Assembly (NCBI RefSeq): GCF_003390915.1
Contig: NZ_QMEM01000001.1
Coordinates: 434,001-498,000, forward strand
DNA: 64,000 nucleotides
Source of the DNA: Lewinella sp. IMCC34183
GTDB lineage: Bacteria > Bacteroidota > Bacteroidia > Chitinophagales > Saprospiraceae
Direction: 5' to 3'
Shown here: one piece after another, positions 1 through 58,521 of the stretch
How positions within the stretch are numbered: the stretch's first letter is position 1
Layout: each line of letters opens with the position of its first letter
Notes under the pieces: generated by a model
What the model saw: the letters and a program-made list of their open reading frames with translations, nothing else
Told to the model about the DNA's origin: nothing
Databases searched by the model: none
Program-made: the position numbers and the translations under genes

Positions 1-332
1 TCAAAGGTCTCCTGGCGCAACCACTCTTCCAGTGCCCGGTGGTAGGCCTCCTGGTGGAAGCGACTGATGTGGTAGCTGGTGCCCCGGACCAGGTTGGCGA
101 CCGCGTCAATGGGACTGATCAGGTTATCGATGGCTACGGTACGTACCTCCCGGTAGTGCGCCATCTCGGCCGGGCGGTCGGTGCCGGCGTAGAAATGCTT
201 GGTGGTATTCATCGCCAGCAGACTCACCTGACAACCCAACTCGCTCAGGCTCTTCGTCAGGCCATGTATCGCAAGGCTTTCCCCGTCCTTGAGCGGGAAG
301 GGGAATTTTTTGGTCAGGACGAGTAATTTCAT
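1..332 (-). CDS. Glycosyltransferase, family 4-like N-terminal part (partial)
   Basis: An open frame runs from an ATG at 332 leftward off the window edge, giving 110 codons with no stop. The N-terminus (KLLVLTKKFPFPLKDGESLA) is the usual opening of Bacteroidota GT4/GT1 glycosyltransferases: a first Rossmann strand, then a Pro/Lys loop that contacts the acceptor, followed by helix and strand (LGCQVSLLAM). Such enzymes transfer a sugar from a nucleotide-sugar to a glycan or lipid acceptor at the inner face of the membrane. The donor-binding C-terminal half lies outside the window, so the substrate cannot be judged. It is the downstream neighbour of the M1 peptidase gene on the same strand, 126 bp away, with hairpins between them. 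Confidence 0.72.
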   Translation of the reverse strand, partial: MKLLVLTKKFPFPLKDGESLAIHGLTKSLSELGCQVSLLAMNTTKHFYAGTDRPAEMAHYREVRTVAIDNLISPIDAVANLVRGTSYHISRFHQEAYHRALEEWLRQETF

Positions 333-15100: not shown

Positions 15101-18100
15101 CGGGCGGAAAAGGCCGTGCTGCCTTCCAGCTCGGTGAACTGCACGGGGACCACACCGGATCCGCCCTGCTCCGTGGTGTATACCCCGTAGATCGAATCCA
15201 CGGCCTCCATCGTGAGCTTGTTGTGGGTTACGATGATGAACTGGCTGTCCTTGCTGAATTTTTTGATGATCCGGTTAAACTTGGAGATGTTGGCATCGTC
15301 CAGCGGCGCGTCGACCTCGTCGAAAATGCAGAAGGGAGCGGGCTTGAGCAGGTAAAGGGCAAAGAGCAGTGCCGTGGCCGTCAGCGTCTTTTCCCCACCC
15401 GACAGCTGGCTGATGGTCTGGGGCCGCTTACCCTTTGGCTTGGCTACGATCTCGATACCGGACTCCAACGGGTCCTCGGGTTGCAGGAGGATGAGGTCGC
15501 AGTTGTCGTCCTCCGTGAAGAGGCTGCGGAACACGTCAATGAAGTACACCCGCACCCGCTCGAAGGCGTCTAAAAACTGGACCGTCGCCGTTTCCTCGAT
15601 CTCCTTGATGGTCTTCAGCAGGGTACCCTTTGCCGCGATGATGTCGTCGCGCTGGGCGGTGATGGTCTCGTGGCGTTCCTTCATCTCGTCGAAGGCCTCC
15701 ACCGCCATCGGGTTGATCTCGCCGTAGTTCCCGATGCGGCTGCGGAGGCGATCTACCTTCATTTCCAGTTCGGGTACCGTACCTGTCCATTCCTCGATCT
15801 CCACTTCGGCGAGCTGGGCCAGGTCGAGGTTAAATTCGATCTTCAGCCGTTCCTCGACGCCGTTGAGGCGGAAACGGACGTCCGTGAGCTTTTCGCGCAG
15901 CTGGTTGACCTTGACTTGCGCGTCCTGCCGTTGCCGGTTCTCCTTGCGCAGCTCGTCCTCCCGGGCGTTGATCTCGGAGCGGGCGGCGTAGTAGGCCTTC
16001 TCGGCAGCGCCGAGGGTTTCCTGGTATGCCTCCTTCTCCTGGCGCATCTGGGCGATGTTATTCGCGAGGGTGCCTTCCTGCTGCCCGATCTGGTCGCCCT
16101 CGCGCGTCAGGGCCGCCAGCTGCTCGCGGTTGCGTTCCTCCTGCCGGCCCAGTTCCGCCCGGCGGTTTTCGCGGAAGGCCAGCTCGCGCTCCAGGGTCTC
16201 CACCCGGTTCTGCTGCTGGATGTACTGGATATTTTCCTGGTTGAAGCGGGCGCTGGCGGCGGACAGGGCCTCGCTCAAGCGACGGTATTCCTCGTCGGTA
16301 CCGGATACGGCATCGCGTAATGCATCGATGCGCCCCCGCAGTTGGCGTAGTTCCGCGTCGATCTCGGCGTTGGTGGCGACCAGCTTTTCGGCGTCGGCCT
16401 CCAGGCGGGTGTTCTTGGCCTGGGTATCGGAAAAGAAGGACTGGAAGCCCTCCACCCGCGCCTGCATGCCGGCCGCTTTCTGCTGCAGCCGGCTCAGCGA
16501 GCGCTGCTGCTCGGGCAGCTGCCGGTCGAGCCGGTTCTGCCGCAGCTGGGCCAGGGCCGCCCGCTCGGCCTCGAGCTGCTTGCTGACGCCCCGCGCCTGT
16601 CCCTCCGCCTCGCGGATGTCCTTCTCGAGCAGCTCCAGGTTCTTCTTGCGCCCGATCTTTTTCCCTTCGAAAAGCCCCACCGAACCGCCGGAGACCGCGA
16701 AGGGGCGCCGGATGTACCGGCCCGCCCGCGAGAGCACCGTTGCCCCGTCGGCGGGAGGCGGGGGCAGCTCGTCGTCGCCGGTCACGAAAACGTTGTGGAG
16801 CAGCCGGTCGGTCAGTCGCCGGTAGGCGGCGTCTACGGTGACGACCGCCGTGGCCGGCCGCGCCCCCTCCGGAGCGGCGGCGGGACTCCCCGCAGGCTCC
16901 GCGGGGATGGCCTCGAGCAGGAAGAAGTTGGCCTTGCCCTTCTGCTTGTCCGCCAGCATTTTGATGGCCCGCTGGGCCTCGGCCGCCGTTTCCACGACGT
17001 AGTAGTTGAGGTAGGGCTCCAGGTAATTTTCGATGGCGGCGCGGTAGTCGGCGTCCACGAGGAGCAGGTCCGAGAGCAGCTGGGGGTCGTCGGTCCAGCC
17101 GCGGTTCTTGCTGAGGTAGCGGATCGACTCCGGGAAACCCTCCAGGCTGTCGATCATGCTTTTGGTCAGTTTGTACTCGTTGCGGCGGGCATCAAGACCG
17201 CGGTTGATGCGGCTGAGTTCCGCCTGCAGTCGCTCAGTTTCGGCTACGGTGACCTCGATGGCCTGCTGCCGGTCGGCCTCGCGGCGTTCCAGGTCCGCCA
17301 GGGCTTCGGCCAGGGCGGTTTCCTCCTTGCGCAGGGCCGCCAGTTCCTCTTCCACCGATTCGCGCTCCCCCCGGCGGGCTTCCAAGTCACCGAGGTTGCG
17401 TTCCACCTGGTAGCGAAAGTTGTCCATCTGGTTGCCGTTGATGGCCCGGCGCTTTTCCAGTTCAAAGATCTTGCGCTCGCCCTCCTGCTGCTCCCGCAGT
17501 CCGCTGTCGAGCTGCGACTTCAGCCCGGCGTGGCCCTCCCGCACCTGCTGCAGGGCGGTTTCGGCGGCGGTACGTTCGGTTTCCCGCGCCGTGAGAGTGG
17601 CGCGCTCCTCTTTGAGCTGGGCGGACATGCGGTCGCGCTGCTCGGCCAGGTCGGCCAGCTGCCCGTCGGCCGCGGCAATATCGGCGCGTAGTTTCTGCGT
17701 CTGCTGGGCTATGAAGGTCTTCCGTTGCTGCAGCAGGCGCTGGTCGTTCTCCAGACCGCGCAGTTCGCCGACCAGGGCGTTGAGCTTCCGCTGCCGTTCG
17801 CCGACCAGCTGTTCTTTGTCCACGTGCTGCTTCCGCTGCTGGTCGAGTTGCCGTTCCAGGGCTTCGATGCGTTCGTCGGCCTGCCGGTAGGCGGTCTCGG
17901 CCTGCTCCGTTTCGGCCTTCACGCGGGAAAAGTCGAGCCGCAGTTTCTCTACGCGGATCCCCGTGAGCAGCAGGCTCAGGTCGCGGTACTGCCCTTTCAG
18001 CTCGCGGTACTTGCGGGCCCGTTTGGCCTGTTTCTCCAGGCTCGTGAGGTTCTTGGCGATCTCGTGGAGGACGTCCTCGATGCGGTCCAGGTCATCCTCG

Positions 18101-50878: not shown

Positions 50879-51610
50879 TTAAACGTCGCGAGCGGCTCCG
50901 GGGATTAGCGGCCAGGCGGCCGATTCTATCGTATGGACGGCAGTTAGCGCGGCCGTTTCGGTGCGAAGGCGGTGCGGTCCCAGGCTCACGGGGCGGAAGC
51001 CGGCGGCGGCGGCTTGCTCGGCCTCTGCGGGACTGAATCCCCCCTCGGGACCGATGGCGATCACCGTATCGTTACCCGGCCGGATCGCCGTGGACAGCAG
51101 GGCGGCACCTTCTTCCCCCAGGTACCCCAGAAAACGGTCGCCGGGGAGGTCGGCCGACAGTACGTCGGACCAGTCGGAGAGCTCGCCCAGTTCGGGAAGC
51201 CAGGCGCGAAGGCTCTGCTTCATGGCGGATTGCAGCACACGCTCGAGGCGATCGGCCCGCAGGCGCTGCCGTTCGCTGTGCTCGGTCAGGATGGGGACGA
51301 TGCGATCGATCCCGATCTCGGTGGCCTTCTCCAGGATCCACTCGAAGCGGTCGATGCTCTTGGTGGGGGCGACCAGCAGGGTGAGCCGGTGACCCGCGCG
51401 GCGGGCTTCGCGGCGCACCAGGCGTACGTCGAGCAGGCACTCCCGCTTACCGGCTTCTAGGATGGTGGCAGAGAACCAGCCGCCGCTGCCGTCGACCAGG
51501 TCCAGCTCGTCGCCGGGCCGCTTGCGCAGTACCCGGACCACGTGGCGGGCTTCCTCCTCCGCCAGGCTATGGGTACCGGCCTGCAGGTCGGGATCGTAAA
51601 ACAGTTGCAC
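50879..51610 (-). CDS. rsmE: 16S rRNA (uracil1498-N3)-methyltransferase
   Basis: The 243-residue product is a SPOUT methyltransferase with an N-terminal PUA-like domain (1-70; RHVVRVLRKRPGDELDLVDG) and a C-terminal knotted SAM-binding domain with VAPTKSIDRFEWILEKATEIG, IGPEGGFSPAE and LGPHRLRTETA. It methylates N3 of U1498 in 16S rRNA of the 30S subunit. It lies 11 bp after the Nfu gene and 5 bp before the DUF4159 gene, giving a small operon. Confidence 0.95.
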   Translation of the reverse strand: MQLFYDPDLQAGTHSLAEEEARHVVRVLRKRPGDELDLVDGSGGWFSATILEAGKRECLLDVRLVRREARRAGHRLTLLVAPTKSIDRFEWILEKATEIGIDRIVPILTEHSERQRLRADRLERVLQSAMKQSLRAWLPELGELSDWSDVLSADLPGDRFLGYLGEEGAALLSTAIRPGNDTVIAIGPEGGFSPAEAEQAAAAGFRPVSLGPHRLRTETAALTAVHTIESAAWPLIPGAARDV

Positions 51611-51621
51611 GCGCTAGGGGA

Positions 51622-51870
51622 TCAGTTTACGGCCACTACCCCGTTGATCTGCGGCAGCCGGCTTTTGATGGCCTGCTCGACGCCGGCCTTCATGGTCATG
51701 GCCGTCATGGAGCAGCCGTGGCAGGCGCCCAGCCACTTAATCTCGACGATCTGATTGTCGCTTACCGTGACCACCTCGATGTCACCGCCGTCGATGGCCA
51801 GGTGGGGCCTGACCGCTTCGAGGGCCGCATCAACGCGGGTGATCAAGCTGTTTCTTTCCTCCTGGGTCAT
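51622..51870 (-). CDS. NifU C-terminal (Nfu) iron-sulfur scaffold protein
   Basis: I start at ATG 51870 (82 aa) because the upstream frame (to 51924) runs into the response regulator. The whole length is the NifU-like domain: a helix NSLITRVDAALEAVRPHLA, GGDIEVVTV, and the CxxC in LGACHGCSMTAMTMK, ending INGVVAVN. The two Cys bind a bridging [4Fe-4S] cluster that is passed to target enzymes. It is the first gene of the Nfu-rsmE-DUF4159 run. Confidence 0.92.
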   Translation of the reverse strand: MTQEERNSLITRVDAALEAVRPHLAIDGGDIEVVTVSDNQIVEIKWLGACHGCSMTAMTMKAGVEQAIKSRLPQINGVVAVN

Positions 51871-51913
51871 TAATGGTGGTTTGCTAGCAAATGTAAACAA
51901 CCCGAGCCAACGA

Positions 51914-52621
51914 TTAGGTTGCATCGTCGTGCAGAAGCATGCGGTAGCCCACGCCGCGTAGCGTCAGGATGCGGACGTCTGGCTCCCCCTCGAGGTGCTT
52001 GCGGAGTTTGCGAACGTACACGTCAAGGTTGCGGCTGTGAAAGAAGCCGTCGTCGCCCCAGAGGTCCCGCAGTATGTTAGGGCGGGGAATTACCTCCTGC
52101 GCGCTGCGCAGGATCAGGTAGCGCAGCAATTCCGCTTCCCGGTGACTTAGGTCGATACGGCGCCCCCGGTCGTCGACCAGGGTGAGGGAGCGGTAGGCGA
52201 AGGTGGTGCCCCCTAGCTGGTAAACTTCCTCCGTGTCCGCGGAGCCGTCCCCGCTGCCCGCACGCAGGCGTACCAAGTTCTCCATTCGTACGAGCAATTC
52301 CTCCATACTAAAGGGCTTCCGGAGGTAGTCATCGCCCCCGGATCGAAAGCCGGTCACCGCGTCGGCGGCGTCGACCCGGGCCGTTAAAAACAAGATGGGC
52401 AGATCCGGAGCCGCGAGGCGCAGCTGCCGCCCGATGCTGAACCCGTCGCGACCGGGCAATTGTACATCCAGCACCGCGATATCAAAGGTGTCGGGATGGG
52501 CCAGGGCCGTTGCCGCCCTATCCGCGGAAGTGTACCACTCCATCCGGCAACCACGGCTTTCGAGACTTTGCTTCACGATCCGCCCCAGAACGGGTTCGTC
52601 TTCTACGTACAGTACGTTCAT
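51914..52621 (-). CDS. OmpR/PhoB-type response regulator
   Basis: The 235-residue regulator has a receiver domain with acidic pocket E7/D8, phosphoacceptor D52 (AVLDVQLPG), T80 and K102 (RKPF), then a linker and a C-terminal winged helix (LSHREAELLRYLILRSAQEVI, RNLDVYVRKLRKHLEG, ILTLRGVGYRML). Its ATG overlaps the end of the kinase gene by 4 nt (ATGA), so kinase and regulator are translated as a pair. OmpR-type winged helices bind direct repeats spaced by a helical turn; such repeats lie upstream of the divergent GLPGLI operon. Confidence 0.95.
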   Translation of the reverse strand: MNVLYVEDEPVLGRIVKQSLESRGCRMEWYTSADRAATALAHPDTFDIAVLDVQLPGRDGFSIGRQLRLAAPDLPILFLTARVDAADAVTGFRSGGDDYLRKPFSMEELLVRMENLVRLRAGSGDGSADTEEVYQLGGTTFAYRSLTLVDDRGRRIDLSHREAELLRYLILRSAQEVIPRPNILRDLWGDDGFFHSRNLDVYVRKLRKHLEGEPDVRILTLRGVGYRMLLHDDAT

Positions 52622-53952
52622 GCCCCGGTAAATTGCAGGGTGACGGTGGTACCGGAAGGCCCCGATGCCGCTACCCTGGCCGTACCGCCGTGCACTTCAG
52701 CCACCTGGCGGACCAGGGTCAGCCCCAGGCCGTTGCCCTTTACCGTATGTCCCCGCTGCCCCGGCGGCACCCGGTAAAAGCGGTCGAAGATGCGGTCCTG
52801 GTCCTGCTCCCCCACCCCGGCGCCGTTATCGGTGACGGAATAGCGTACTGCGCCGTCGGGGCCGGACGCTATGTCCACCCGGATCAAGGGTGGCTCCCCA
52901 CCGTACTTCACGGCGTTGTCGAGCAGATTGGATATCGCAAGGCCGAGGTAGTGGGGGTCGCCGGTGACCGTTGTCCGTCCACTGGCCGAGAGCTGGAGGG
53001 TGCCGGGCTCGAGCCCGTACCGCAGGGCGACGGGCCGCCACGCCGCTGCGGTCGCCTCCGCCAGATCAACCGGTACGTGAAGCAGCTTTTCCGGTGCGGC
53101 GGCCATCCGCAGACTACCGATGGCCTGGTCGGCAAGGCGGTCCAGCCGCGTCAGCTCCTGCCGGCTCAGCTCGAGGTAATCACGGCGGAGGGCAGGATCG
53201 TCGTCCGCGCCGAAGCGGTCCAGCGCTTCCAGGGCGGCCGTGACGGCGGCGATCGGGGTCTTCAGTTCGTGGGAGATATTGGCCAGCAGGGCCTCGCGGT
53301 CCTGTACCTGCCGGCGGTGCTCCTTCAGGCTGCGGTAGGCGGTGAAGAGAGCCAGACAGATAGCCGCCACCATGACCAACGAGAACAGCAGTTCACCTCC
53401 CATCTCCATGATCACCCGCAGGCGGTAATCGCTCAGGCCCAGCACCTTCGTGGATTTAGAAGAGAGGGCTCCGGCGCCGGTAAGTTGAAAGGGCCAGGCC
53501 CCCGCGGCCCGGGCCGAATCAGCGGAAGCATACCGGTGCAGGCGCACGCCATACCTGGTGGCCACGGAGTCCAGATCCGACGGCTCTGTCGTGACGTTGA
53601 GTACTACGGCAGCGCTGTCTACGGTGCCTACGCTACCGGGGACGGCGGGGCGTAGCGTATCGTCGGCCGATCGCGCCGGTGCTACCGTGTACGTCACCTG
53701 ATCGCTGGGACCATCGTCGATCCGGATATGGCCGAAGTGAAAGGTAGTATCCTTACCCACTACGTCCATGCGCACTTTCCCCTGGTCCATGATACTTGCG
53801 AGCATGCGCTCCGTCCGTAACCGACCCAGCTCGGTATTGATGCGCTCAATGAACAGACTGCGCTGCTCCACGTAGCTCGCGTGCAGGAAGTATCCCAGGA
53901 GGGAGAACGTGAACAACAGTGCTACGGTCAGGGAGAGGGCAACCCGTTTCAT
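52618..53952 (-). CDS. Sensor histidine kinase
   Basis: The 444-residue kinase has transmembrane segments at about 5-25 and 186-206 and a periplasmic sensor region of about 160 residues between them. HisKA holds H228 in NISHELKTPIAA; the HATPase domain has N-box NLLDNAVKYG, G1 DNGAGVG, F-box FDRFYR and G2 GNGLGL. It phosphorylates the regulator that follows. The periplasmic part is of no recognised type. The gene is divergent from the GLPGLI operon. No HAMP domain is evident, as the catalytic core follows the second segment closely. Confidence 0.94.
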   Translation of the reverse strand: MKRVALSLTVALLFTFSLLGYFLHASYVEQRSLFIERINTELGRLRTERMLASIMDQGKVRMDVVGKDTTFHFGHIRIDDGPSDQVTYTVAPARSADDTLRPAVPGSVGTVDSAAVVLNVTTEPSDLDSVATRYGVRLHRYASADSARAAGAWPFQLTGAGALSSKSTKVLGLSDYRLRVIMEMGGELLFSLVMVAAICLALFTAYRSLKEHRRQVQDREALLANISHELKTPIAAVTAALEALDRFGADDDPALRRDYLELSRQELTRLDRLADQAIGSLRMAAAPEKLLHVPVDLAEATAAAWRPVALRYGLEPGTLQLSASGRTTVTGDPHYLGLAISNLLDNAVKYGGEPPLIRVDIASGPDGAVRYSVTDNGAGVGEQDQDRIFDRFYRVPPGQRGHTVKGNGLGLTLVRQVAEVHGGTARVAASGPSGTTVTLQFTGA

Positions 53953-53992
53953 AGCCCCAAGGTACGGGCGTACGTCAGGTGCCCGGGGCCGG

Positions 53993-54058
53993 ATTAACCT
54001 TTATTAACCTTAGTTGAGGTGGATTAACCGGTCCGTCGGGGACCTCGGCTCACCTTTG
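53993..54058 (+). promoter_or_regulatory. ATTAACC direct repeats and -7 element between kinase and GLPGLI operons
   Basis: Exact ATTAACC copies begin at 53993, 54003 and 54023, in 10-bp phase, with a degenerate unit in the slot at 54013. A CACCTTTG element (54051-54058; one mismatch to TAnnTTTG) lies where a -7 should be, and the repeats end at about the -33 position, which has no TTTG. This is the layout of a class II activator site for an OmpR-type regulator. Confidence 0.62.
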
Positions 54059-54111: not shown

Positions 54112-54885
54112 ATGCGCATCCTCCCCCTCTTCCTCCTTTCCGGCTTCCTGCTCCTGACGTCATCCGCCGCGGCGCAGGCCACGTACGGCGAACTGATCTA
54201 CACCCGGACCGACGCACTCCCGACGAAGGGAATCGGCGACGGCGCGCTGAACGGGAAGATGCAGGAGTTACTAGGGCAACTTCACGCCAGTGGAGGTACG
54301 ACCCGTCGGTACCACCTGCGGTTTTCCCCGGGCGCCTTTGAATTCCGGGAACTGCACCAGCCCCCCCGAGAGATCGAATCGGGGGGAATACGCATCATGG
54401 TCAATAACGGACCCACCCCACCCGACCGTTTCTATACCGACACCCATACCCACGAAATACACAACAGCGAAGCCATCGCCGATCGCATGTTTCAGTACGG
54501 GGGCCCCGCGCCCACCGTGGCGTGGACGCTAACCGGTGAATCCGTACCCGCGAGTGCCGCCACGCTGGGCTTTCCCTTGCTGGTCGCCCGGGCCGTTACT
54601 ATCACCGGCGACACCCTGCTTGCCCGGTACGCCCCGGCCCTGCCGGTTTCCTTCGGGCCGCTCAACTACTACGACCTGCCGGGTGCCATTCTCCAGCTGG
54701 AGATCACCGGACCGGGCTATCACCGGTCGTATCGGGCCGAAACCCTGGAACTGTCCGCCGAGCCACTAGACATTGCACCCGCCACGGAGGGCAAAGAAGT
54801 ATCGATCGACGAGTTTAATCGCCAGCGGAACAAGTTCCGTGCGCGTAAACCCAACGCCGTACGCACGGTCGTGCGCAGCCAGTAA
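54112..54885 (+). CDS. GLPGLI-family secreted protein 1
   Basis: The 257-residue product has a signal peptide (MRILPLFLLSGFLLLTSSAA, ending AQA) and then the GLPGLI architecture: YGELIYTRTDAL at the start and the signature FGPLNYYDLPGAILQLEI at about residues 181-198 (consensus G-P-x-x-x-x-x-L-P-G-x-I). The family is of unknown function, exported and found beside TonB receptors. It is the first gene of a run of three and is divergent from a two-component system, so likely under its control. Confidence 0.88.
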   Translation: MRILPLFLLSGFLLLTSSAAAQATYGELIYTRTDALPTKGIGDGALNGKMQELLGQLHASGGTTRRYHLRFSPGAFEFRELHQPPREIESGGIRIMVNNGPTPPDRFYTDTHTHEIHNSEAIADRMFQYGGPAPTVAWTLTGESVPASAATLGFPLLVARAVTITGDTLLARYAPALPVSFGPLNYYDLPGAILQLEITGPGYHRSYRAETLELSAEPLDIAPATEGKEVSIDEFNRQRNKFRARKPNAVRTVVRSQ

Positions 54886-55055
54886 AGCCAAGTATTGCGC
54901 CAATAAAACGATCGCGACCACCAGAACCATCGGTAGGGATCATCAGATGGTCGAGCGTATTGTGCCGACTATCTAATAGAAAGGTTAAGGCGGCCAGATA
55001 GACGTGTATTGTGGGAGGTGAACCGTAATTTACTCCAAAAGCCCCACCAAATAGT

Positions 55056-55793
55056 ATGAAGTATTTATCGTTGATCCTGTTCCTTCTCTTGGTAGGCCCG
55101 CTCGGCGCCCAGATCACGCACGGAACCATCGACTACGTTGAGCACAAGGAATTCCCGGTTTACGAGGGTATGTCCATTGACCAGAAGAAGCGTATGGAGG
55201 AGATGAAGGCCGAAGGCGCCTTCGACCGTACCGGCCGGTTGACCTTCGACCAGAACGCCTTTAAGTACCAGCAACTCCAGCAGGAGCAGGAGCCCGACGG
55301 CCGGCGGGGCTGGTGGGGCAACGACGAGACCGAAAACAAGAACATCTACTACACCGACATCTCCGACAGCCTGGTCACCGACCAGCGGCAGATCATGGAC
55401 CGTATGTTCATCATGGAGGACAAGTGGCTGCAGCCGGAATGGGAAGTACCCGCCAACCAGCGGGCCAATATGGCCTACACCCTGCCCAGCAAGGTGGCCT
55501 TCGCGACCTCCCCGGAGGGAGACACGCTGACCGCCTACTTCACCGAAACCATACCCATCGGTATCGGGCCCGCCGGTTTCGGCGGCCTGCCGGGGGCCAT
55601 CGTGTACCTGAAGGTGCAGAACGAAGGGATGTACACGGAGTACACCATGAAAACGATGCAGCCCAACCCGGCGGAGCTCAGCCTGGTCAAGCCCACGGAG
55701 GGCGACATTATTACCCGTGAAAAATTCAACAAGGTTGCCGAGAAACGCCGCGAGGTGATGGAGCGCCGCCGCCGCGGCTGGGACCGCAACTAA
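55056..55793 (+). CDS. GLPGLI-family secreted protein 2
   Basis: The 245-residue product has a signal peptide (KYLSLILFLLLVGPLGA-Q). It shares with its neighbour the opening THGTIDYVEHKEFPV and the signature IGPAGFGGLPGAIVYLKV at about 169-186, here with a true GLPGAI. The C-terminal 30 residues are basic (EKRREVMERRRRGWDRN). It follows the first GLPGLI gene after 170 bp and precedes the barrel gene by 25 bp. The pair is probably a duplication; sequence outside the signature differs strongly. Confidence 0.92.
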   Translation: MKYLSLILFLLLVGPLGAQITHGTIDYVEHKEFPVYEGMSIDQKKRMEEMKAEGAFDRTGRLTFDQNAFKYQQLQQEQEPDGRRGWWGNDETENKNIYYTDISDSLVTDQRQIMDRMFIMEDKWLQPEWEVPANQRANMAYTLPSKVAFATSPEGDTLTAYFTETIPIGIGPAGFGGLPGAIVYLKVQNEGMYTEYTMKTMQPNPAELSLVKPTEGDIITREKFNKVAEKRREVMERRRRGWDRN

Positions 55794-55818
55794 TACTACC
55801 GCACAACCATACCCCACA

Positions 55819-58521
55819 ATGAGACACCTGCTTACCCTGTTCCTCGTCCTCGCGGGCCTGATGCTCCACGCCCAGTCGGAGATCAGCGCTACTGTCGTCG
55901 ATACGACCGGCACCACGCTGCCGGGCGCCAACGCCGTGCTGCTGCGTACCTCGGACACCCTGCTCACCAGCTTCGGCACTACCGACGACAAGGGAGAATT
56001 CCTGATGCAGAAGGTGCCGCCCGGAGAGTACATCCTCCGCGTCACCTTCCTCGGCTTCGAACGCCCGGACCAGGAGATCACCGTCACCGCCTCCGACCAG
56101 TACCTGGGTCTCGGAGAACTGCGGATGTACCCCGCCGGCTTCCAGCTGAGCGGCGTGGAGGTCACCGCCGACCGTATCCCCATCCGCATGAAGGGCGATA
56201 CGATGCTTTACGACGCCGCGGCCTTCGCCATCGGGGAGAACGCCAAGGTAGAAGACCTGCTGCGCCGCCTGCCCGGCATGAGCGTGGACGCCAACGGCCA
56301 GCTTACCTGGCGGGGAAAACCCATCAACGAGGTCATGATCAACGGCAAGCCCTTCTTTGCCGGTAATTCCACCCTGATTACCCAGAACCTCGACGCCAAA
56401 GCCATCAAAAACGTGGAGGTGTTTGACCAGAAAACCGACGATGAAGAGATATCCGGGGTCGACGACGGCCAGGAAAACACGACCGTTAACCTCGAAATGA
56501 ACGAGGAATTCAAGGCCAAGATCTTCGGCGAGTTGTACGCCGGAGGCGGACAGGCGGCCGGGGGAGACGACCCACGCTACGACGGCGGCGGAAAACTCTT
56601 CCGCATCAGCGACGCCACGCAAATCGGCATCCTGGGGACCATCAACAACGTCAACCGCGTCGGCTTCACCGGCGACGAGCTGTCGAGCTTCAACCAAAGC
56701 TCCGGCCGCGGGGGTTACATCCGCTTCGGCGACGGCTCCCTGCCCTACTACGACGGCGGACAGGCCCCGGGCCAGAACCGCAGTATTGCTACCGGCATCA
56801 ACTTCGGCCGGACGGTCGGACAGCACGGTCAGCTTACGATGGACTACACGCTGTTCGAGCGCCGGCAGACACAGACGGTCACCGAGCGACAGGCCTTTAC
56901 CCGGGCGAACAACGAGCGTACCATCTTTTCCCAGCAGACGGACGCCACCAAGAACTACAGCCACGGCCTCAACGTGGAGTACGAACAGGAGATCGACAGT
57001 ACCTCGCGGCTGCGCTTCTACGGCAACGGCTTCCTGAGCGGCAACGACGGACGTTCGGTGGCCGCCACCCGCGTCACCAGCGACAACGACCCCGAAAATT
57101 CCTACCGCGTGGAAGAGATGTCCGACGGCTACAATCCCGGTGGATCCGCCTCCCTGCGCTACAACCGGCGCCTCAGCGGGCGGCGCGGCCGCACCTTTGG
57201 GGCCTCCACCTCGGTCAACTACCGCAAGGACCAGACCGACCTCGACGTCCTGGTCGCCGGCCTCCAGGAGGACAATTCCGGCAACCTCCCCATCGCCGGT
57301 AGCCTCCAGAACGGCCTCCAGGTACAGGATCGCCTGACCAACTCGCTGAGCTATAACGGTGAGGTACGCTACGATCAACCGATCACCGAAAAGCTGGTGC
57401 TGGAAACCGAGCTGGGATACAATTACGATGAGGACGAGGGCGATTACCGCTTCCGGCTCGAGGAGGCCGACCCTATCACGAACCTGCTGAACCGCAGCTG
57501 GACCACCTACCGCGGAGAGGCTGACCTTTCCTACCGTTTCGGTGAGGGCAACAACTTCCAGGTCGGGGCGGTACTGCAACGCAACCAACTCGGCGTCAGC
57601 GGAGACACCTCTCGCACCTCCGACTTCACCTACCTCCTTCCGGACATCGGATTCCGCCTTCGTAAGGGCAAGACCTTCTTCCGGCTCAATTACCGCGCAG
57701 ACGTGCAGGCACCCAGCGTCAGCCAGCTGCAGACCATCGCCCGCCCCTCGGTGACCGGCCGCGTAAACGTAGGCAACCCCAACCTCGACCCCGCTACCCA
57801 GCACGAGGTAAGCGGCAATGTGTGGTTCAACGATCAGTTCCGGGCCATCAGCCTTAACGGATACGTCAGCGCGGGCTACACCGACAACGCCTTCGGCAAC
57901 AGCCTCACCTTCACCCCGAGCCAGCAGATCTACCAGACCGTCAACGTCAGCCACGCCTGGCGGACCATGGTATACGCCGGCTCCACGATCGGTATGGCAT
58001 TCATGAAGGGCGAACTACGGACCAACGTTAACAGCAGCCAAAGCATCGGCCAGGGCTTCGTGGACGGCGTAGCCCGGACCAACACGTCCTCCAACTTCAG
58101 CGGCACCGTCGACCTGACCACGGAATTCAACCAAAAGTCATTCCTCAAGGCCGGCTACACCTACTCCCGCAACGTGAACAGCTTCGACGACGAGGAGACC
58201 GATGACATCGTCACTGTCACCCACGACATTGTAACCCAGTTCCAGCTCGAGGTGACCGATACCTGGCGCTTTGAAACGCAATTCACCTACCGCATCTTCG
58301 AAGCGGCCTCCTTTGCCAATGCCACCAACATTCCGGACCTCCAGGCAAGCATCGAGATCCGTCCCTTCAAGAAGGCCGGCCACTACTTCGTGATCGGCGG
58401 CCGCGACCTGCTGAACCAGAACACGATCATCAATCGCTACGCCCAGGCGTTCGTCACGACGGAACGCACGAGCAACGGCCTAGGGCGCTACGTACTGGCC
58501 ACCTTCCACTACCAGTTGTAG
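55819..58521 (+). CDS. Outer-membrane beta-barrel, TonB-receptor-like, with CarboxypepD_reg domain
   Basis: The 900-residue product has a signal peptide (1-20, ending LHAQ), a carboxypeptidase-regulatory-like domain (about 21-105; SATVVDTTGTTLPGANAVLL), a plug-like region (about 110-230; GMSVDANGQLTWRGKPINEV) and a long barrel (about 240-900) with repeated amphipathic strands, ending LGRYVLATFHYQL. It has the OMP_b-brl_3 form: the TonB box is not evident. It likely imports or exports a ligand through the outer membrane. Transcribed with two GLPGLI genes, possibly under the adjacent two-component system. Confidence 0.9.
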   Translation: MRHLLTLFLVLAGLMLHAQSEISATVVDTTGTTLPGANAVLLRTSDTLLTSFGTTDDKGEFLMQKVPPGEYILRVTFLGFERPDQEITVTASDQYLGLGELRMYPAGFQLSGVEVTADRIPIRMKGDTMLYDAAAFAIGENAKVEDLLRRLPGMSVDANGQLTWRGKPINEVMINGKPFFAGNSTLITQNLDAKAIKNVEVFDQKTDDEEISGVDDGQENTTVNLEMNEEFKAKIFGELYAGGGQAAGGDDPRYDGGGKLFRISDATQIGILGTINNVNRVGFTGDELSSFNQSSGRGGYIRFGDGSLPYYDGGQAPGQNRSIATGINFGRTVGQHGQLTMDYTLFERRQTQTVTERQAFTRANNERTIFSQQTDATKNYSHGLNVEYEQEIDSTSRLRFYGNGFLSGNDGRSVAATRVTSDNDPENSYRVEEMSDGYNPGGSASLRYNRRLSGRRGRTFGASTSVNYRKDQTDLDVLVAGLQEDNSGNLPIAGSLQNGLQVQDRLTNSLSYNGEVRYDQPITEKLVLETELGYNYDEDEGDYRFRLEEADPITNLLNRSWTTYRGEADLSYRFGEGNNFQVGAVLQRNQLGVSGDTSRTSDFTYLLPDIGFRLRKGKTFFRLNYRADVQAPSVSQLQTIARPSVTGRVNVGNPNLDPATQHEVSGNVWFNDQFRAISLNGYVSAGYTDNAFGNSLTFTPSQQIYQTVNVSHAWRTMVYAGSTIGMAFMKGELRTNVNSSQSIGQGFVDGVARTNTSSNFSGTVDLTTEFNQKSFLKAGYTYSRNVNSFDDEETDDIVTVTHDIVTQFQLEVTDTWRFETQFTYRIFEAASFANATNIPDLQASIEIRPFKKAGHYFVIGGRDLLNQNTIINRYAQAFVTTERTSNGLGRYVLATFHYQL

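Follow-up and report, generated by a model that had tools for sequence, protein, structure and literature searches.

A conserved ATTAACC repeat array between divergent kinase and GLPGLI genes in Lewinella, a putative tandem operator of the neighbouring OmpR-type regulator

Introduction

Promoters of Bacteroidota are described as carrying TAnnTTTG at -7 and TTTG near -33 (PMC7366714). Among the two-component regulators of this phylum, PhoP of Riemerella anatipestifer (PhoPR) binds a stretch of 35 nt that precedes its own operon, and the most conserved nucleotides of its site are TTTAACA. The published account gives 583 DAP-seq peaks and 50 direct targets; five of the latter are GLPGLI genes, of which three are lower and two higher in the deletion strain (PMC9603813). 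In Porphyromonas gingivalis, HaeR was described to bind its own promoter (PMC3764172), and deletion of PG0720 was reported to lower the GLPGLI genes PG1492 and PG1908 (PMC8757827); we infer that HaeR and PG0720 are one regulator. More generally, regulators of the OmpR family are described to bind direct repeats as tandem dimers (PMC4832192, PMC4415409). The Pho box of Escherichia coli PhoB consists of tandem 7-bp direct repeats bound head to tail, with a reported contact between regulator and sigma (PMC4415409), and Mycobacterium tuberculosis PhoP, a solved relative, binds direct repeats as a tandem dimer (PMC4832192). In Helicobacter pylori, HP1043 recognizes two TTTAAG hexamers 5 bp apart, which span -42 to -26 of the target promoter (PMC8345958).

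Here we analyze a 64-kb stretch of DNA from Lewinella sp. IMCC34183 (the window), in which an earlier reading made from the letters alone, the sequence-only reading, had noticed ATTAACC repeats between a two-component system and a GLPGLI operon. The array is most likely a docking site through which the neighbouring regulator would control the genes on both sides. Compared by description only, Riemerella PhoP is similar in being a Bacteroidota two-component regulator with a TTTAACA site, binding to its own promoter and GLPGLI targets, but its described regulon is broad, whereas this genome has one strict site. HaeR/PG0720, again compared by description, shares the phylum, the type of regulator, the own promoter and the GLPGLI genes; it differs in its link to haemin and capsule, and no binding motif was found in the descriptions consulted. 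PhoB and M. tuberculosis PhoP are described with another half-site and a period of 11 bp (7+4), in contrast to 10 bp (7+3) here, where the promoter is of the Bacteroidota -33/-7 type (PMC7366714). HP1043 is likewise an OmpR-family activator with paired hexamers over the upstream promoter region, but it is described as an orphan that acts independently of phosphorylation on one two-hexamer site, modelled head to head (PMC8345958). Two apparent precedents were rejected: the TAACTGA repeats described in Beggiatoaceae have a different sequence, and the TTAACC that appears in an RprY paper is part of a primer. The ATTAACC array at GLPGLI operons was not found in the open-access literature searched, subscription papers being outside this coverage. 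The type of switch is thus well known while the particular array, which recurs in many Bacteroidota, is apparently undescribed; the described precedents of Riemerella PhoP and HaeR/PG0720 make it a well-conserved addition to a known kind of operator.

The repeat array

The array lies inside a 159-bp gap between the kinase start at 53952 (minus strand) and the first GLPGLI start at 54112 (plus strand). Its elements and those of the two promoters are:

53957..53964, minus strand: -7-like element of the kinase promoter, TACCTTGG, 5 of 6 letters; place fixed in relatives
53993..53999, plus strand: half-site 1, ATTAACC, exact; core TTAAC in 61 of 61 anchored loci, themselves chosen on this core
54003..54009, plus strand: half-site 2, ATTAACC, exact; core conservation to be read with the same selection caveat
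54013..54019, plus strand: degenerate half-site GTTGAGG, 3 of 7 letters, in array phase
54023..54029, plus strand: half-site 3, ATTAACC, at the place of the -33 box; not used to pick the anchored loci
54051..54058, plus strand: -7 element of the GLPGLI promoter, CACCTTTG, 5 of 6 letters of TAnnTTTG; spacing to half-site 3 fixed

The three copies that had been read at 53993, 54003 and 54023 are confirmed as exact and on the plus strand (starts at +0, +10 and +30), and ATTAACC occurs nowhere else on either strand of the window. One possible option is that the copies cluster by chance, or that they form a structural or promoter element to which no protein binds. The total count agrees with this option, three copies being ordinary against a shuffle mean of 3.3. 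The clustering contradicts it, since three copies within 40 bp on one strand appeared in 0 of 300 windows simulated with an order-1 Markov model (two copies in 1 of 300), and so do the conservation, context and spacing presented below, which leaves this option a practically negligible probability. On the plus strand of the window, only one other 7-mer made up of three or more different letters, TCGGCCT at 17876, also has three copies in 40 bp.

In the whole 5.1-Mb genome, ATTAACC-N3-ATTAACC occurs once, as does its reversed control. With up to three mismatches, ATTAACCTTWATTAACC was found at four places of the genome, this locus with 0 mismatches and the others with three (none with one or two), and the reversed ATTAACCTTWATTAACC at seven.

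CACCTTTG begins 21 bp past the third copy. TTTG or TTG was looked for at the -33 place of the GLPGLI promoter in the window and was absent, which agrees with the earlier description of 54051-54058 as a -7 element lacking its -33 TTTG. The locus thus has at least two direct half-sites 10-11 bp apart upstream of a promoter, the arrangement of an OmpR-type direct-repeat operator. It also has the geometry of class II (Pho-box-like) sites, in which the operator replaces the upstream promoter box at a fixed, helix-phased spacing.

The kinase and its regulator

The two-component system is encoded leftward of the array:

52618..53952, minus strand: sensor histidine kinase with HisKA and HATPase_c; two membrane helices judged by eye
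51914..52621, minus strand: OmpR-family response regulator, proposed to bind the array (domain matches, tree)

The regulator, which had been called OmpR-type, proved canonical: the PF00072 receiver (81.4 bits) and the PF00486 winged-helix Trans_reg_C domain (66.7 bits) both score over their cut-offs, as in the OmpR/PhoB family. Read from the sequence, it retains the phosphoacceptor Asp (LDVQLPG), and the kinase retains the His box (SHELKTP). Neither of two named identities was accepted: RprY (NF051850), although the best-scoring named regulator model, reached 173.2 bits, far below its cut-off of 370, and Bacteroidota PhoB (NF053854) reached 130.2 bits, short of its cut-off of 270. An RprY-like paralogue in the same genome (L222) scores 274 bits on NF051850, which is also under the cut-off, and falls on the other side of the regulator tree.

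This tree omits L223 (one of the genome's own five paralogues, not recovered at full length) and loci with the regulator cut off. In it, the regulators of the motif loci (44 rows, window included) lie on one side of a 91/90 branch, which is not among the best supported, and 14 paralogues on the other. The recognition helix reads S-R-x-[LM]-D-V-Y in 43 of the 44 motif-locus regulators (L134 differs) and [AG]-R-S-[ML]-D-V-F in 12 of the 14 paralogues. Beyond the regulator, within 50879-51924, the window encodes a protein starting MQLFYDPD, which we take to be RsmE-like, with a NifU-domain protein between the two; in the two nearest relatives, L008 and L009 (from 3862), the regulator is likewise followed by a protein with an LQLF[YF]DPD start.

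Conservation among relatives

A kinase search in 60 genomes gave many matches, of which 30 loci were listed: the window's own (L007) and L008-L036. Between the divergent kinase and GLPGLI genes, TTAAC-N5-TTAAC is present in 19 of 19 loci (the nearest 18, L008-L025, and L031), so that the loss of the repeats where the gene order is kept, which would speak against an operator, was not seen in any of these relatives. The other 10 listed kinase loci are paralogous and have no GLPGLI gene in the stretch examined, and none of them has an ATTAACC pair. In the window's genus, the kinase is carried at E <= 1e-40 by 13 of 21 genomes (own included). The motif was found at up to one mismatch in 11 of these 13 and in 0 of the 8 without the kinase, counts that come, like those above, from related loci and genomes and not from independent trials. 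The two exceptions, G006 and G014, hold the motif in the expected place with 2 and 3 mismatches (L013, L011), and two further genus matches at one mismatch were found in G015 and G005 (L260, L261).

These distributions bear on another hypothesis, that another regulator uses the array as its operator, be it an OmpR-family paralogue such as the RprY-like protein of contig C52 or a different factor. A looser TTAAC-N5-TTAAC pair is found in three of the 10 paralogous kinase loci (L029, L033 and L034), and the consensus resembles the TTTAACA described for Riemerella PhoP (PMC9603813). Yet the motif is missing from all eight genus genomes that lack the kinase, though five show an RprY-like pair (L026, L027, L028, L035 and L036), the motif-linked regulators are all on one side of a branch, and no exact TTAAC-N4-6-TTAAC was found in the flanks examined of the genome's five other OmpR-type regulator loci. 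We therefore regard another regulator as very unlikely, and the repeats as very probably the tandem operator of the adjacent regulator at 51914-52621, a reading built from sequence comparison. The looser pairs of the three paralogous loci lie near the kinase start and hint at related operators for related regulators.

In a phylum-wide sample, the exact core was found in only 2 of 395 genomes, one of them out of context (L219), so the strict form of the motif is patchy in the phylum and universality of the core was rejected. At L219 (1500-1550) two core copies face each other in a hairpin-like tract; this is another use of the letters, and the place was rejected as a second operator. In the genome studied the strict core is found at this locus alone. 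The expectation that the other GLPGLI genes of the genome share the site was not supported: the three others (L002-L004) are without a TTAAC pair in the flanks examined, and with the core unique in the genome they were dropped as targets. In some relatives a separate barrel-type gene has its own operator copy.

Motif-first scans and gene context

ATTAACCTTWATTAACC was also searched regardless of genes. In the family scan at up to one mismatch, 71 of 199 genomes match, versus 43 of 199 for the reversed pattern. As this excess of raw counts is only moderate, it is the gene context and not the count that discriminates. Among the 30 loci listed, 24 adjoin a kinase, GLPGLI or barrel-type gene and six adjoin none, 20 of the 30 having kinase and GLPGLI in the expected orientation; none of the 30 reversed-pattern loci listed adjoins such genes. 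A wider scan of genome contigs gave at least 119 motif stretches. The first 80 listed were taken as set 1 and the other 39 as set 2, which was scored with the same profiles and thresholds. The context profiles were built from the window and near relatives (18 kinase, 15 regulator, 10 GLPGLI and 1 barrel sequences); the kinase threshold of 20 bits is loose, and the kinase+GLPGLI counts need both genes correctly oriented. Set 1 has 51 of 80 loci in context, 35 of them kinase+GLPGLI, and set 2 has 21 of 39, 18 of them kinase+GLPGLI. Among the 119 matches listed, 72 are in context, all of them among the 97 Bacteroidota loci and none among the 22 others, and 47 are without these genes within the limits applied, 25 of these being Bacteroidota. 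In-context records of set 1 come from Saprospiraceae, Chitinophagaceae, Cyclobacteriaceae and Bacteroidales, among others.

In the family scan and set 1, half-site 3 came together with the -7 element at 54 of the 55 places with kinase and GLPGLI, at 5 of 6 with the kinase only, at 3 of 6 with GLPGLI only, at 8 of 10 with only a barrel-type gene and at none of the 37 that have no such gene. The kinase-side -7 element was found, in the same order, at 55 of 55, 4 of 6, 2 of 6, 0 of 10 and 2 of 37. Set 2 gave 16 of 18 kinase+GLPGLI places versus 1 of 19 without genes for half-site 3 plus -7, and 17 of 18 versus 1 of 19 for the kinase-side -7. These counts assign the forward half to the GLPGLI or barrel-type promoter and link the backward half to the kinase.

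Barrel-type genes with the array, half-site 3 and -7 but no adjoining kinase were seen at L054, L065, L079, L081, L082, L109, L118 and L144; at L082 a kinase lies ~4 kb off with its own array copy. Such lone-barrel sites suggest that the operator may also work away from the regulator genes and that the regulon can spread over sites. The neighbours of five context-free loci (L072, L086, L107, L121 and L219) were read, and no kinase or GLPGLI gene was found near them. At L086 (3224-3290) and L121 (2525-2590) the core comes with a perfect -7 at +58 and a poor half-site 3 (4/7), and both arrays stand before similar genes of 1112-1114 aa, which may be a further target. At L072 and L107 (Marinifilum, Ancylomarina) the core lies close to repeated genes that were judged by eye to be thioredoxin-like or lipoprotein-like; half-site 3 plus -7 was looked for there and was absent.

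Promoter geometry

The spacing was analyzed in 74 sequences (the window, L008-L025 and the 55 kinase+GLPGLI places of the motif scans) anchored on half-site 1, from which 13 near-copies (>70% identical) were removed to leave 61. Ties of equal score in placing the -7 elements and half-sites were settled toward the expected place, in real data and shuffles alike. Half-site 3, though not a selection criterion, is conserved at +30/+31, usually at +31 across relatives and mostly at +30 in the window's genus. It is degenerate (<=4/7 letters) in 8 of 61 loci, seven of these in the window's genus, and because so few letters match, its placing in those eight comes partly from the tie-breaking. The +20/+21 position holds a weak half-site, with weakly conserved WTCAAGG-like letters at +21 in relatives. 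From this weak half-site and half-site 3, the array is therefore described as 0/10/(20-21)/(30-31).

Measured from the start of half-site 3, the GLPGLI -7 element starts 28/27 bp downstream in 49 of 61 loci, 18/17 bp in 10 and elsewhere in two, so that 59 of 61 have either 27-28 bp or a spacing shorter by 10 bp, about one helical turn. A -7 with 5 or 6 letters is present at +58..60 in 48 of 61 loci, against a mean of 1.9 (maximum 6) in 200 flank shuffles, and at +48..49 in another 11. Compared with most loci, the window, L008 and several members of the genus have both half-site 3 and -7 one base nearer, so that the distance between the two is kept. The -7 lies 10 bp nearer the array in L015, L053, L059, L073, L082, L110, L114, L127, L139 and L142, five of which are Chitinophagaceae. 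On the other side, TAnnTTTG faces the kinase at -36/-35 in 58 of 61 anchored loci, and the kinase-side -7 is at its expected place in 51 of 61, against a mean of 1.1 (maximum 4) in shuffles. Within 53950-53964 of the window, the kinase -7-like element ends 4 bp upstream of the kinase ATG, a distance similarly short in some relatives such as L008 and L009, and the kinase mRNA is accordingly predicted to be leaderless or nearly so.

Given that the array is an operator, the regulator probably activates the GLPGLI side. The sequence-only reading had proposed such activation of the GLPGLI/barrel operon, and the fixed spacing from half-site 3 to -7 supports it as a prediction, the helix-phased spacing being the best argument for activation over repression. 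Its more guarded suggestion, that the regulator perhaps controls its own divergent operon, now seems well supported by the equally fixed spacing to the kinase -7. As the array lies upstream of this -7 and nothing else is conserved between the two, positive autoregulation is the simplest guess. The same operator could instead serve a repressor that shuts one or both divergent promoters, for example by negative autoregulation of the kinase operon. A single array is common to the two promoters, its half-sites point away from the kinase promoter, and Riemerella PhoP is reported both to activate (three) and to repress (two) GLPGLI genes, so the motif does not by itself give the sign (PMC9603813). 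Against a repressor, neither -7 element is covered by the array, which stands in place of the -33 box, and the GLPGLI -7 spacing varies by a helical turn, as polymerase contact would select. If the array is an operator, we consider repression unlikely.

Proposed mechanism

The mechanism that best fits an activating operator would start with two head-to-tail regulator dimers, one on half-sites 0/10 and one on 20-21/30-31, along one face of the helix. The promoter-proximal half-site would replace the missing -33 box, and the bound regulator would recruit RNA polymerase, an activation of the Pho-box-like kind. For the kinase-regulator promoter, upstream of which the array likewise keeps a fixed distance, it would provide autoregulation, most simply positive. 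Binding, dimer arrangement, polymerase contact and sign are all steps that we infer from the arrangement of the half-sites and promoters.

The GLPGLI operon and its products

The rightward cluster (54112-58521) holds two GLPGLI-type genes and a barrel-type gene:

54112..54885, plus strand: first GLPGLI-like protein, TIGR01200 49.6 bits (cut-off 50); modelled fold LolA/RseB-like
55056..55793, plus strand: second GLPGLI protein, TIGR01200 86.1 bits, over the cut-off of 50
55819..58521, plus strand: long protein with a CarboxypepD_reg domain (domain match)

The long protein gave no match to a barrel family and is called here a putative outer-membrane barrel. The model of the first GLPGLI protein, made from 29 sequences, has a pLDDT of 85.6 and a pTM of 0.80. 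Its structural matches in VIA-align, all at 16% identity or less, are best for the N-terminal part of two PNGases (range Z 15.9-17.0, with 7zgn at Z 17.0 and PNGF-II at Z 16.0); LolA reaches up to Z 11.6, ependymin-type proteins and VioE lie at Z 10-11 and RseB/MucB at Z 9.2-9.8. The Foldseek alignments to LolA are loose (TM to query 0.24-0.34). A fold shows no function, but a role of GLPGLI proteins as periplasmic carriers or stress sensors may be a reasonable first idea. In the open-access literature searched, only three papers mention GLPGLI proteins, and no paper was found that brings GLPGLI and LolA together.

Significance

A predicted regulator, an operator code and a promoter geometry together make the regulation of GLPGLI genes directly testable, and the code lets the regulon be predicted from genome sequences. 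The array would also offer a natural example of helix-phased activation at a Bacteroidota -33/-7 promoter, and the LolA/RseB-like model gives a first testable idea on the role of the regulated proteins. A wider reading, which we put forward tentatively and hold to be unlikely, is of a self-amplifying envelope switch with few other targets, in which one helix-phased operator would drive both divergent promoters. The kinase would sense the state of the envelope, and the induced GLPGLI proteins, as LolA/RseB-like carriers in the periplasm, would serve the dedicated outer-membrane protein, perhaps with feedback to the kinase. If this is true, the locus would give the Bacteroidota a counterpart to envelope-quality-control systems, its defined operator code being half-sites at 0/10/21/31 and a -7 element at +59 or one turn nearer.
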